This document shows positions 23,880 to 39,680 of a stretch of 39,680 nucleotides of DNA, one piece after another. The position numbers and the translations under genes are program-made. The notes under the pieces are model-generated. The model searched no databases, was not told where the DNA came from, and saw only the letters and a list, made by a program, of their open reading frames with translations. Source of the stretch: Patescibacteria group bacterium (GTDB lineage: Bacteria > Patescibacteriota > Minisyncoccia > Phycocordibacterales > UBA9973); contig JAGWLB010000001.1 in assembly GCA_028865035.1 (NCBI GenBank), positions 163,668-203,347 on the forward strand, written 5' to 3'. How positions within the stretch are numbered: position 1 is the stretch's first letter; each line of letters starts with the position of its first letter.

Positions 23880-24587
23880 TCTCGCTCACTGTTATCCTTT
23901 ATTTTAAGGGTCTTTTGAATCGAGCGAGAAACAGAACGCAATAATAATAAAGTGTACAAGTATTAGAGGAAGCGGTTCCCGAGAATACTTGCACTGTCTG
24001 ATTCTTTCGAAAAGAAAGATGAAGATGGTTTTCAGATTTCCTAATAGGAAATTAAGAGTATATGGTGGATGCCTAGACTAAAAAAGGCGATGAAAGACGT
24101 GGCATGGCAGCGATATTTTTCGGGGAGGTGCCTAGCAACCTGTGATCCGGAAGTTTCTGAATGGGGAAACCCACTTGCGTAAACCGCAAGTACTTTCATA
24201 CTTGATATGAAAGAGCATACCCAGGGAAGTAAAACATTTCAGTACCTGGAGGAAAAGAGAAAAATATTTATTTTCTGAGTAGCGGCGAGCGAAAAGGAAA
24301 AAGCCCAAACCGAGGAATCACACAGTGCGGAAAATAATTACGAATTGGTAATTATTTTATTCGTTGTGTGATACCTCGGGGTTGTAAGATAACAATGTAG
24401 ATTTATCTAGAGGAGTTAAAAAATATATTATTAGATCAAACTTCTGGAAAGGAGTGCCATAGATGGTGATAGCCCAGTGGTCGAAAATAATATGTCTCTT
24501 TGATTGTTATTCTTGAGTAACTCAAGACACGAATAGCTTGAGCGAATCCGCCAGAACTAACTGGCAAGGCTAAATACTTTTTTAGAT

Positions 24588-24630
<43 letters not shown>

Positions 24631-25211
24631 GATAAGGGGAGTGAAATAGACCTGAAACCATATACTTACAAGGAGTCGGAGCGGACGTATTTATACGATC
24701 CGTCACGGCGTGCCTATTGAAGAATGAGCCAACGAGTTTATCTATGCTGCAGGCTAAGCTGTTAGAACAGTGGAGCCTTAGGGAAACCGAGTGTTAATAG
24801 CGCGAAATTTATGTAGTTTAGATAAGACCCGAAGCCAGGTGAGCTTGCCATGAGCAGGATGAACCCTGTCGAAAGATGGGGGGAGGTCCGAACCGGTGAC
24901 CCGTGCAATAGTCTCGGATGACTTGTGGTAAGGAGTGAAAAGCTAATCGAACCTGGTAATAGCTGGTTCTCTCCGAAATAGCTTTAGGGCTAGCGTTACG
25001 TGTTCCTCTTGGGGGTAGAGCACTGGAAGGTTTCGACAGGGAGCAATCTCGCGACACCTATCAAACTCCGAATACCAAGAGTTAGAACGTAGCAGTTAGG
25101 CTATGGGGGCGAAGCTCCATCAGCCAAAAGGGAAACAGCCCAGATCTCTAATTAAGGTCCCTAAATTTACGCTAAGTGCAAACCAAGGAGGTGAAATTTC
25201 TCTGACAATGA

Positions 25212-25243
<32 letters not shown>

Positions 25244-26060
25244 GAAAGCGTAACAGCTCACTCATCAAGAGATCTCGCACCGAAAATAATCGGGGCTAAG
25301 CGTAATACCGAAATTGAGGGCTTTGCTTTTCTTCGGAAAAGCGGAGCGGTAGGAGAGTATTCTATACAGCGTCGAAGCTAAAGGGGTGACCCATAGTGGA
25401 GCGTATAGAAGTAAGAATGTTGGCACAAGTAACCGCAAGGAAGGTGAGATCCCTTCCCGCCGAAAGATTCAGGTTTCCTTGGCAATGGTGATCATCCAAG
25501 GGTTAGTCGGTCCTAAGGGAATGGCGAAAGCCGCACTCGATGGGCACATGGTTAATATTCCATGACTTCTGTTGTATTCGAAGATAGGACGGAGTGTAGT
25601 ATATAAAGCTCATTATTGGATTTGAGTTTGTGAGTGAAGATGGTTTCTAGGAAAATCCGGAAACTGACGTTAAAGTAACATCTAAGCAAAGCATAAATAT
25701 GTGGGTTCGCCCATGTAAATTTTATAAAGCACGCTTCCAAGAAAAGTATCTAAGGTTAATACAATAGAATCCGTACCGTAAACCGACACAGGTAATCTGG
25801 TCGAGCAGACTAAGGCGAACGAGTGAGAGGTCTTCAAGGAACTCGGCAAAAAAGCAGCCGTAACTTTGGAATAAGGCTTGCCGTTCTTAATTTATTAAGA
25901 TCGGCCGCAGCGAAAGTATCTCTGGCAACTGTTTATCAAAAACACAGCTCCCTGCGAACTCGCAAGAGGATGTATAGGGGGTGACGCCTGACCAATGCCA
26001 GAAGGTCAACTATCGGTGGTGATATGACTTCGGTTGTATTGCTGGCTGATATAAGCCCTG

Positions 26061-26095
<35 letters not shown>

Positions 26096-26306
26096 TTTGC
26101 ATTCGAGCGAAAGCTGGAATGTAAAACGGACTAGGACGGTTATAGAAAACGATAAACAATTTATAAAAATTTCATGAACCATTTTAGCTACCTATTGATG
26201 TAGTAATATATCTTTAGTCCAAACTTGATGAATGAGAGACCAACGTCAAGCATCCGAACTCTGCAAAGAGAGGATGAAGATAGAGTCCTTCTTAGGGGTA
26301 CAGAAG
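26096..26306 (+). ncRNA. Intron 1 in 23S rRNA after E. coli-equivalent U1931 (group I-like, ORF-less, 211 nt)
   Basis: Interrupts AAGGT|AGCGAAGTACCTTGTCGGG; 5' exon ends U, intron ends G; S-like GAAGATAGAGTCC at 26276; P8-like ATCC..CTCT-GCAA-AGAG..GGAT; exon/intron P1-like pairing 26078-26090 with 26133-26145. Confidence 0.8.
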
Positions 26307-26615
26307 AGCGAAGTACCTTGTCGGGTAAGTTCCGACGCGCACGAATGGCGTAATGACTGGAGAACTGTCTCGAAGACCTGCTCGGTGAAAATACAATACC
26401 GGTGAAGATGCCGGTTACCTGCAGATAGACGAAAAGACCCTAGAAGCTTTACTGCAGCTTGATATTGAGTATGTGATTATACTGCGTAGCATAGATGGGA
26501 GAGGTTTGATGGTTCCGATTTCGGTTGGGATCTACTCGTCAGTGAAATACCATTCTTTGTGACTGCATATTCTAATTTCTAAGGCAAAAACTTAGAGAGA
26601 CAGTATCTGGTGGGT

Positions 26616-26656
<41 letters not shown>

Positions 26657-26971
26657 GTTTATTAAGGTTAGCTAGGCGCGAATGGAAACCGTGCCGATAG
26701 TGTAATGGCACAAGCTGGCTTAACTGTAAGACGTACTTGTCGAGCAGATACGAAAGTAGAACATAGTGAACCGACATTTCGCATTAGATGCGGATGAAGA
26801 TTAACGGATAAAAGCTACTCTAGGGATAACAGGCTAGTTCCGCCTAAGAGTTCATATCGACGGCGGAGTTCGGCACCTCGATGTCGGCTCACCTTATCCT
26901 GGTGGTGGAGAAGCTGCCAAGGGTTTAGCTGTTCGCTAATTAAAAAGGTACGCGAGCTGGGTTCAAACCGT

Positions 26972-27322
26972 TCAGAGATTAATCATGTAACAATGATTGA
27001 GAATTGGACAGTTTGAACCAATCGAGGAAGAAGAGAAAAGAAATTTTCTCAGAAATGTTTTAATCTGAGATTAAGACCGTGTGTACTGTGGTACACTCAC
27101 GGCGGCATACATTAAATTGTATGAGAAGTTCACTTATATCGGTGAAATCCTACTTGTAAAAGAGGATAATACCGAGGGAAAGTATTCATACTACCCGTAG
27201 AGACTAAATGTGAAATAGTTCATAACTTTGTTATGGATGAAAGTTATAGTCCAATCCCTTTAGTAATAAAGGTTCGATCATTATTATTGAAACGCGATAA
27301 TGAGAGAAGTAAAATATAGATG
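26972..27322 (+). ncRNA. Group I intron 2 in 23S rRNA after E. coli-equivalent U2593 (ORF-less, 351 nt)
   Basis: Interrupts GGGTTCAAACCGT|CGTGAGACAG; R-like GTAGAGACTAAATG and S-like AAGTTATAGTCC; P8-like CATAACTTTGTTATG; 5' exon ends U, intron ends G. Confidence 0.88.
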
Positions 27323-27374
27323 CGTGAGACAGGTTGGTCTCCTATCTACTGCAGGCGTTGATTCTTGAGAAGAT

Positions 27375-27405
<31 letters not shown>

Positions 27406-27678
27406 TGACCTCTGGTGTGTCGGCTCTAGCGCCCGCTGGACTGCCGAGTAGCTATGTCGGGAATGGATAACCTCTGAAAGCATCTAAGAGGGAAGCCAGC
27501 TTCAAGATGAGGAATCGTTTGAGAAACCTAAGAGATGATTAGGTTGATAGGCACTAGGTGTACGCACAGTAATGTGTTCAGCCAAGGTGTACTAATCGTT
27601 CGATTCCTATTAGGAAATGTGGAAATCACTCCAAAGGAACGAGTGTTTCCTGCGGGGCAAGTTATTATTGCGTTTTGT

Positions 27679-37813: not shown

Positions 37814-37900
37814 GGAGAGGTCGCATAGTGGTCTAGTGCACTGCCTTGGAAAGGCAGCAAGGTGTTACAGCCTTCGGAGGTTCGAATCCTCTCCTCTCCG
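37814..37900 (+). tRNA. tRNA-Ser(GGA)
   Basis: Acceptor GGAGAGG/CCTCTCC, anticodon arm CTGCC-TTGGAAA-GGCAG, long variable arm, GGTTCGAATCC. Confidence 0.93.
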
Positions 37901-39397
37901 CAATAAAACGAAATCAGGCTCCCCGCGAAAAAATACGGCGTCGCGAAGCGACGACGACTGGGCAGAATTCCCGCCAAACCCTGCACTCGCAAGGATTTCC
38001 CAAGGGGCGGAGCGCTCAAAAAGGAGTGTTCGATCCATAATTTTAAAGTTCGAACCGACTTTTTTGAACAAATGAATATTTTCTTCATTTGTTCTATCGT
38101 TTACCAATTCCATATTGAATTTCAAAAACTTTTCGGTAAGTTCGAACCGATTATTTTCTTTTTGTTCTAAATCCGACAATTTCTCTTTGAGAAGCTGTTT
38201 TTCGTTCATTAGTTTATTTTTCATATCGCGATATTCGTCGAGTGTTAGAGCGTTTTCTAGATACATCGTCATCAGCTTCTCAATTTTAGATTCCAAAAGA
38301 GAAATGTCGGATTTTATATTATCTACAAAAAGCTCGCTCGATTGTATTTCGGATGATTGATCTTTTTTGTTTTCTTCAATCATCCACTCTAACCAATAAA
38401 GTGGCAAAGAAACTTTTTTGATTTCATTTTCTATTTGAGAAGTGATGAGTTCTTCGCGAACGTAAGGTTGAGTGCAAGGATTTTTCCGTTTCGTACATCG
38501 TAAATAATTATGACCTTTTTGTGTTTCGGTCGTGATAAAACAGCCACATTCGCCACAACGGAAAAATCCGCGATAAATATATGGTTTCAGTCCTTTGCTG
38601 TGCGGTTTAGATTTACGGCTCATCACTTCGGCAACGGAATCAAAAAGTTTCTTTGAAATAATCGGTTCGTGTTTACCCTCGTATATCTCGCCGTTATACC
38701 TCATCATGCCCGTGAAAATCGGATTTCTCAAAAGTTTTTGATAATTAGACACCGGAAGGTCTCCATCGCTTTTCCCAGTTAAGCCAAGAGCGTTAAATTT
38801 GTCGCGGACTTGTCGCAAAGTAAAGTTACCAGTCGCATAGGCCTCAAATGCTTTTTTGATAAGGGGAGCAAGAATAATATTTGGCTCAATTCCACCACCT
38901 TCTTTATTTACATAACCAAGAGGAGCATTTTGAGGCCATATTCCTTCCTTCACTTTGTTTCTTTGTCCGCGCTTAATATTTTCTGATAAATTATCAACAT
39001 AATACTTGGATTGAGAAAAAGCGATTGAGAGCATGAATTTGCCTTGAGGTGTCGGATCAAACCAAAAAGTCGAAAATTTTAAATCTTTAATTACTTCAGT
39101 ATCAACGAGGTAGATGACTTTTCCACCATCTACCGAGTTTCTCGCAAGTCGGTCTGGGTGCCACGCCAAAATACCAGAAGCTTCGCCGTGCTCCATTTTC
39201 TCTAGCATTTCGTTAAAAATAGGACGGCCTGGTATTTTGGCAGACTGCTTCTCGACAAAGACATCAACTATTTCTAATCGTTCTTTCATCGCTAATTCTT
39301 TCAACTCTGCAAGCTGATCAGAAATACTACGAACTTGATGGTCTTTGTCGTCCGTAGACTTGCGAGTATAAATAAAAAATTTTTTGGTTTGATTCAT
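37865..39397 (-). CDS. Large serine recombinase (resolvase + recombinase + zinc ribbon); start MNQTKKFFIYTRKSTDDKD at 39397
   Basis: FIYTRKSTDDKDHQVRSISDQLAELKELA...LAWHPDRLARNSVDGGKVIYLVD...GECGCFITTETQKGHNYLRCTKRKNPCTQPYVRE; C-terminal end uncertain. Confidence 0.93.
   Translation of the reverse strand: MNQTKKFFIYTRKSTDDKDHQVRSISDQLAELKELAMKERLEIVDVFVEKQSAKIPGRPIFNEMLEKMEHGEASGILAWHPDRLARNSVDGGKVIYLVDTEVIKDLKFSTFWFDPTPQGKFMLSIAFSQSKYYVDNLSENIKRGQRNKVKEGIWPQNAPLGYVNKEGGGIEPNIILAPLIKKAFEAYATGNFTLRQVRDKFNALGLTGKSDGDLPVSNYQKLLRNPIFTGMMRYNGEIYEGKHEPIISKKLFDSVAEVMSRKSKPHSKGLKPYIYRGFFRCGECGCFITTETQKGHNYLRCTKRKNPCTQPYVREELITSQIENEIKKVSLPLYWLEWMIEENKKDQSSEIQSSELFVDNIKSDISLLESKIEKLMTMYLENALTLDEYRDMKNKLMNEKQLLKEKLSDLEQKENNRFELTEKFLKFNMELVNDRTNEENIHLFKKVGSNFKIMDRTLLFERSAPWEILASAGFGGNSAQSSSLRDAVFFRGEPDFVLLRRGEDSNLRRL
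37898..38017 (+). repeat. 120-bp inverted repeat, left copy
   Basis: CCGCAATAAAACGAAATCAGGCTCCCCGCG...GGGGCGGAGCGCTC; reverse complement of 39418-39537 with 2 mismatches. Confidence 0.97.
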
Positions 39398-39417
39398 ATT
39401 TTTGTATTGGTAACGAA

Positions 39418-39537
39418 GAGCGCTCCACCCCTTGGGAAATCCTTGCGGGTGCAGGGTTTGGCGGGAATTCTGCCCAGTCGTCGTCGCTTCGCGACGCCGT
39501 ATTTTTTCGCGGGGAGCCTGATTTCGTTTTATTGCGG
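39418..39537 (-). repeat. 120-bp inverted repeat, right copy
   Basis: GAGCGCTCCACCCC...GAGCCTGATTTCGTTTTATTGCGG. Confidence 0.97.
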
Positions 39538-39680
39538 TCTGTATTAGACAAAGTTCGAATTTATTTCGAACAAAACCCAAATGAATTCTAATCTTACGCT
39601 CGACTTTTATAATTCTCTCCTATCTATCTACTACGCTCTACTAATGTGCTAATTCAAACAAATGACTAGTTTTGCGAAGC

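Follow-up and report, generated by a model that had tools for sequence, protein, structure and literature searches.

The window, i.e. the whole stretch of 39,680 nucleotides that was analysed, comes from a genome of 735 kb in 21 contigs whose nearest named relatives are Patescibacteria. Near its right end lie a tRNA-Ser(GGA) gene and, on the opposite strand, the gene of a large serine integrase, which is flanked by the two 120-bp arms of an inverted repeat (IR1). The window ends where the contig ends, 143 bp past the right arm, and the element continues elsewhere. The features used below are listed here; X denotes an arm of IR1, and P the half-site on the other side of the crossover core.

37814..37901, plus strand: tRNA-Ser(GGA) gene found by ARAGORN (Rfam gives 37814-37900), the integration target
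3' part of tRNA-Ser(GGA): attB half-site, TTCGAA, 11 nt, CCGC (spacing from sequence)
37865..39397, minus strand: large serine integrase gene, ATG at 39397 (ORF and Pfam)
37898..37901, plus strand: crossover core CCGC at the tRNA junction (attL); the IR1/IR2 overlap in complete relatives and the four bases repeated in the empty-site comparison
37898..38017, plus strand: X arm (IR1), tRNA-side copy; its minus strand also codes the integrase end
39418..39537, minus strand: X arm (IR1), upstream copy, part of the intact attP
39534..39537, minus strand: core CCGC of the intact internal attP
39538..39559, minus strand: P half-site, TTCGAA 16 nt from the core vs 11 nt in the tRNA; TCTAAT box beside the core
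39538..39591, plus strand: duplicate of the stretch that, in the predicted circle, encodes the conserved C-terminus of the integrase, SVLDKVRIYFEQNPNEF, with its stop codon at 39589-39591
39534..39680, no strand assigned: first part of IR2, comprising P and a noncoding region and truncated where the contig ends; identical inverted copy at G000:C21:1-147

Elsewhere in the window (24042-27614), the match to the 23S rRNA spans 3573 bp as compared with the 2925 positions of the model, thus the gene probably carries one or more insertions. It is followed by a 5S gene, and no 16S gene was found within the window with Rfam.

The inverted repeat described in the original prediction was borne out: 37898-38017 and 39418-39537 are complementary at 98% over 120 nt, with two mismatches (at 37987 and 38008) and 1400 nt between the arms. 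A match of this length and identity is in practice impossible by chance. The arms are GC-rich (0.59 vs 0.37 in the window), and the left arm begins in the final four tRNA bases, CCGC, in agreement with the predicted location at the tRNA-Ser 3' end. A genome-wide search for further copies returned these two arms only. The internal hairpin noted earlier is present in the arm, but the whole arm does not fold better than shuffled sequences (z 0.04). The Rfam search of the arm revealed nothing except the tRNA, and a role of the arm as structured RNA or DNA was rejected on these two grounds.

The integrase contains Resolvase, Recombinase and zinc beta ribbon domains, all exceeding the Pfam cut-offs. 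Its best NCBIfam match is CcrB, with 101 bits vs a cut-off of 900, and the scores with the other Ccr models were CcrA 51 (cut-off 700) and CcrC 32 (cut-off 900). In the integrated state the protein ends in RGEDSNLRRL, the final codons being the antisense of tRNA-Ser. The integrase ORFs of integrated relatives likewise terminate in antisense tRNA codons, with RDSNPR-like tails.

Relatives of the recombinase were gathered from the family and the phylum, and were present in 109 of the 380 genomes that were sampled from the phylum. Among the loci analysed, almost all of those whose flanks are intact have the gene between inverted arms of about 75-170 bp, which are mostly 97-100% identical, and have the gene 3' end at a tRNA. 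The targets include the tRNAs for Ser, Asp, Gln, Asn, Gly, Leu, Ala, Val, Thr, Arg, Trp, Ile, Phe and Glu. The predicted linkage between repeat and recombinase thus held in the relatives, whose recombinase genes are surrounded by the same layout. At two loci (L026 and L032) the repeat is present and no tRNA was detected at the integrase 3' end, which makes non-tRNA or altered targets possible. Short matches to the arm start, of 34 and 64 bp, were seen at L063 (G011:C6:60072-60106) and L004 (G018:C1:24346-24409), respectively; the match in G011 directly follows a tRNA-Ser and looks like the remnant of a decayed element.

The original prediction had named a fold-back artefact of assembly as a possible source of the repeat. 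The contig end within the window and the breaks that many relatives show in the first few hundred bases upstream of the integrase would fit a fold-back or a collapsed repeat, yet contig breaks are expected inside a perfect repeat. The outer neighbours of the two arms differ, the DNA between the arms is unique, and the layout recurs, with differing arm sequences, in dozens of independent assemblies, including unrelated ones with contigs of 672-867 kb. We give practically no credence to an artefact.

A tree of 93 recombinases was built with a quick method, and contains some long branches, making the deep placements provisional. In this tree 72 recombinases form a supported Patescibacteria clade, of which 64 have the repeat, six have diverged arms and two are cut by a contig end. 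A small sister group of seven is mixed for the repeat, and the repeat is lacking in the remaining nine Patescibacteria rows and in the five relatives from phages or plasmids in the tree. Most of the Patescibacteria relatives without the repeat are still located next to the 3' end of a tRNA, towards which the gene points, so targeting of tRNAs looks older than the doubled attachment site described below. A phage origin was considered and rejected: no relative was confirmed in IMG/VR, the phage and plasmid relatives among the matches listed showed about 28% identity or less, and the seven that were examined do not have the repeat.

In complete relatives a second inverted pair (IR2) adjoins IR1 and brackets the cargo. 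It measures up to ~350 bp, and its copies are 97-100% identical in the clearest cases. IR1 and IR2 have only the crossover core in common, which is CCGC here; the overlap is 4 bp (CCGC) in L009, L014, L075, L081 and L185, with small variations elsewhere. About two dozen loci with sufficient flanking sequence showed IR2, and in each of them it lies 5' of the integrase gene. Some others with sufficient flank (e.g. L168, L170 and L178) showed no IR2, perhaps because the element there is longer than the stretch fetched. The DNA outside the far IR1 arm is conserved between elements, and past this conserved flank many elements carry a divergent small HTH gene and cargo. The far IR2 copy stops at the core, after which host DNA begins. 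Since IR2 begins at the core that closes IR1 and its far copy ends at a core, the integrated layout reads tRNA(B)-core-[X int X]-core-[P cargo P]-core-host, in which the X arms and the P arms are separate inverted repeats. Only the tRNA-side arm of IR1 is an end of the element, the other arm being internal. The repeats do flank the gene, but to describe it as bracketed is misleading: complete relatives extend for kilobases past the far arm and end in the second inverted pair.

The extent of the mobile unit can be read from an empty site. In G010 the sequence C25:2314-2562 is uninterrupted where G021, of the same genus, has 4.1 kb inserted; a 255-bp query made by joining the G021 flanks matched G010 at 87%. 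In G021 itself the query was matched in two pieces, 1-88 and 85-255, lying 4.1 kb apart. The two pieces repeat four bases, and these four are the core. Elements with both ends located span about 2.6-8 kb. In the genome of the window, contig C21 opens with the same 147 bp that close the window's contig, followed after the core by host DNA, thus C21 holds the right end (attR) of the window's element. A search by way of the HTH regulator recovered neither the cargo of this element nor the sequence that joins C12 to C21, and the element's own empty site was not among the loci already fetched, leaving the attL and attR junctions. At the empty tRNA-Ser loci L055, L056, L057, L059, L065 and L067, and in the far flanks of L007 and L075, a terminator-like hairpin is followed by an inverted copy of the tRNA 3' end, CTCTCCGC ... 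GCGGAGAGG. The integration point thus lies within an extended palindrome.

These comparisons bear on the idea that the 120-bp arms are the ends of a self-contained 1.6-kb cassette that flips or moves alone. Perfect inverted arms around a recombinase gene are what such a cassette would look like, and at one locus (L084, at a tRNA-Gln) the arrangement is the opposite of that at L085, the integrases of the two being nearly identical. However, the conserved flank beyond the far arm forms part of a second inverted pair that spans kilobases, the whole 4.1 kb and not 1.6 kb is gone from the empty site, and one orientation, with the gene 3' end at the tRNA, was found in 56 of the 57 elements that could be scored across the assemblies. 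An autonomous cassette is thus very unlikely, and frequent inversion is not supported by the 56:1 ratio. The invertible recombinase cassette suggested in the original prediction is still conceivable in view of L084, the other orientation being real but rare in assemblies. A MITE or a transposon with terminal inverted repeats was rejected on two grounds: conservation between elements continues beyond the far arm and, judging by the empty site, the unit that moved was larger. The suggested composite of two MITE-like repeats was not supported either: the arms are one half of a duplicated attP region, and further copies are missing from the genome.

The assignment of the half-sites rests on the spacing of a motif. 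The T-arm motif is located 16-18 nt from the core in the tRNA half. For P, 42 elements were compared: relative to the tRNA, a T-arm-like motif (TTCG) is displaced away from the core by 5 bp in 28 of them and by 4 or 6 bp in another 13. Most elements offered one candidate and, if there were several, the one nearest to a 5-bp shift was chosen. For serine integrases, a 5-bp difference in motif position between the two types of site, attP and attB, has been described as the rule (PMC3783163). Because the shift in P fits this rule, P is taken to be a half-site of attP and the tRNA to supply the half of attB, and it follows that the P-core-X sequence upstream of the integrase is an intact attP within the integrated element. 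A P-type motif was not seen in X at the mirrored distance, and the X half-site is defined by its position only.

The reading frame of the integrase runs across the core of attP, so that insertion swaps a conserved C-terminus for antisense tRNA codons. When the ORF was joined as in the predicted circle, it acquired a conserved tail, e.g. LLDKVRNYFEQNPND, and the differences between such tails are biased to third codon positions (573 vs 459 and 391 at the other two). The circular-form tail can be seen directly in L076, where the P region follows the gene. This locus (G033:C6), in which P-type sequence and not a tRNA comes after the integrase, is probably the outer member of a tandem pair. It is one of several elements with diverged arms (L052, L076, L078, L093, L180 and L183). 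The arms of L078 (G162:C22) are 74% alike, and L076 and L078 are probable tandem arrays or hybrids that arose by exchange between different elements. In the closest group the median identity of the arms is 100% within an element and ~71% between elements, thus the arms appear to be homogenised inside each element.

Taken together, the architecture is best described as a tRNA-targeted serine-integrase element with a doubled inverted attP, to which we assign a probability of about 0.9 on the evidence of sequence comparisons. The features in the window very probably represent the tRNA-proximal end of such an element, inserted by the large serine integrase at the discriminator end of the tRNA. We infer that the excised form is a circle in which two inverted ~350-bp copies of attP (P-core-X) separate an integrase unit from a cargo unit. 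One copy would overlap the integrase 3' end, and the other would lie upstream, with its P perhaps supplying the promoter. Integration would normally proceed by the 3' copy, joining X to the tRNA and P to the downstream host DNA; the integrase C-terminus would thereby be replaced by antisense tRNA codons, and the upstream attP would be left intact. The rare opposite orientation could arise by use of the other copy or by inversion between the copies, and recombination between the copies would keep the arms nearly identical.

The role of the upstream copy was considered separately. A -10-like box beside the core in P was found in 18 of 41 elements, vs a mean of 3.9 and a maximum of 10 in shuffled sequences, in a scan whose distance range was adjusted after a first look. 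In the window the TCTAAT box next to the core is a possible integrase promoter, and with such boxes beside the core the upstream attP may hold the promoter of the integrase. This could be its whole function, with the 3' copy as the only attachment site, the upstream copy as promoter or operator of the integrase, the identity of the arms due to gene conversion, and neither inversion nor alternative integration taking place. The box in P points at the integrase, the orientation bias is strong, and tRNA targeting occurs without the repeat in the small sister group and in further relatives. Against this, the entire 350-bp region, with the full core and both halves, has been kept, which exceeds the needs of a promoter, and L084 is oriented oppositely. 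We regard a promoter-only role as possible, if somewhat doubtful. That the second attP serves as promoter or operator and, in addition, as an alternative crossover site could equally well be true or false. Inversion or amplification are further conceivable functions of the doubling.

Among the cargo genes of the elements are those for an HpaII-type restriction system plus methylases, a C5 methylase, a D12 methylase that has a PD-Lambda-5-like partner, and Shedu SduA, as well as those for a helicase-nuclease, an ArsP permease, a cytochrome D1-like protein and an aminotransferase, among others. Restriction-modification cargo has been noted in genomic islands of Patescibacteria, in a report in which recombinases and tRNAs are unmentioned (PMC12455944).

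Gene exchange in Patescibacteria, which have very small genomes, is poorly understood. The elements studied here constitute a recognisable family: their ends are exact, they target tRNAs and they carry defence genes. They also supply many integrases whose tRNA attachment sites are already mapped. The doubled inverted attP and the change of the integrase tail on insertion raise testable questions on the control of direction in serine integrases. The layout was not found described in the open-licence literature searched, and an earlier description elsewhere is possible. Perfect repeats break many assemblies, which may explain why the layout was overlooked.

The closest known systems are the tRNA islands and prophages of phiC31/A118-type large serine recombinases. 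They are similar in the integrase domains, in the short core common to attP and attB, in the exact ends with an empty site, and in a ZD-like motif whose position differs by ~5 bp between attP and attB. They differ in that here a full, inverted second attP lies beside the integrase, so that the predicted circle has two attP copies and the integrated form keeps one; the doubled repeat was also absent around the seven phage or plasmid relatives examined (see above). Among known elements of this kind, none was found with a doubled inverted attP, and the architecture is as unusual for a serine integrase as the original prediction had held. In place of the new element type that it also proposed, the element is better called a variant of the tRNA-targeted serine-integrase elements.

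SCCmec-type elements are also moved, with variable cargo, by large serine recombinases (Ccr), and CcrB was the best NCBIfam match of the integrase. The target of SCC elements is rlmH, whereas the targets here are tRNA 3' ends, and the integrase scores are below the Ccr cut-offs. The yeast 2-micron plasmid (Flp/FRT) is a circle that carries its recombinase gene and is split by two inverted copies of the target region. Two inverted recombinase sites would split the circle in a similar manner here, where the circle is deduced from the integrated layout. In contrast to the 2-micron plasmid, the recombinase is of the serine and not of the tyrosine type, the element is a bacterial one that integrates, and no replication gene was recognised. 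It is an improbable idea that the circle is a bacterial counterpart of the 2-micron plasmid, in which the integrase, acting on two inverted attP copies, would flip the integrase unit relative to the cargo unit, and the exchange of the tail on insertion would switch the direction of the reaction without a separate directionality factor. In integration-dependent immunity phages attP lies inside a coding gene, and integration alters the C-terminus of the protein encoded across attP. The change of a protein C-terminus by integration is shared with these phages; here, unlike in the phages, it is the integrase itself that is altered, and its new tail comes from antisense tRNA.
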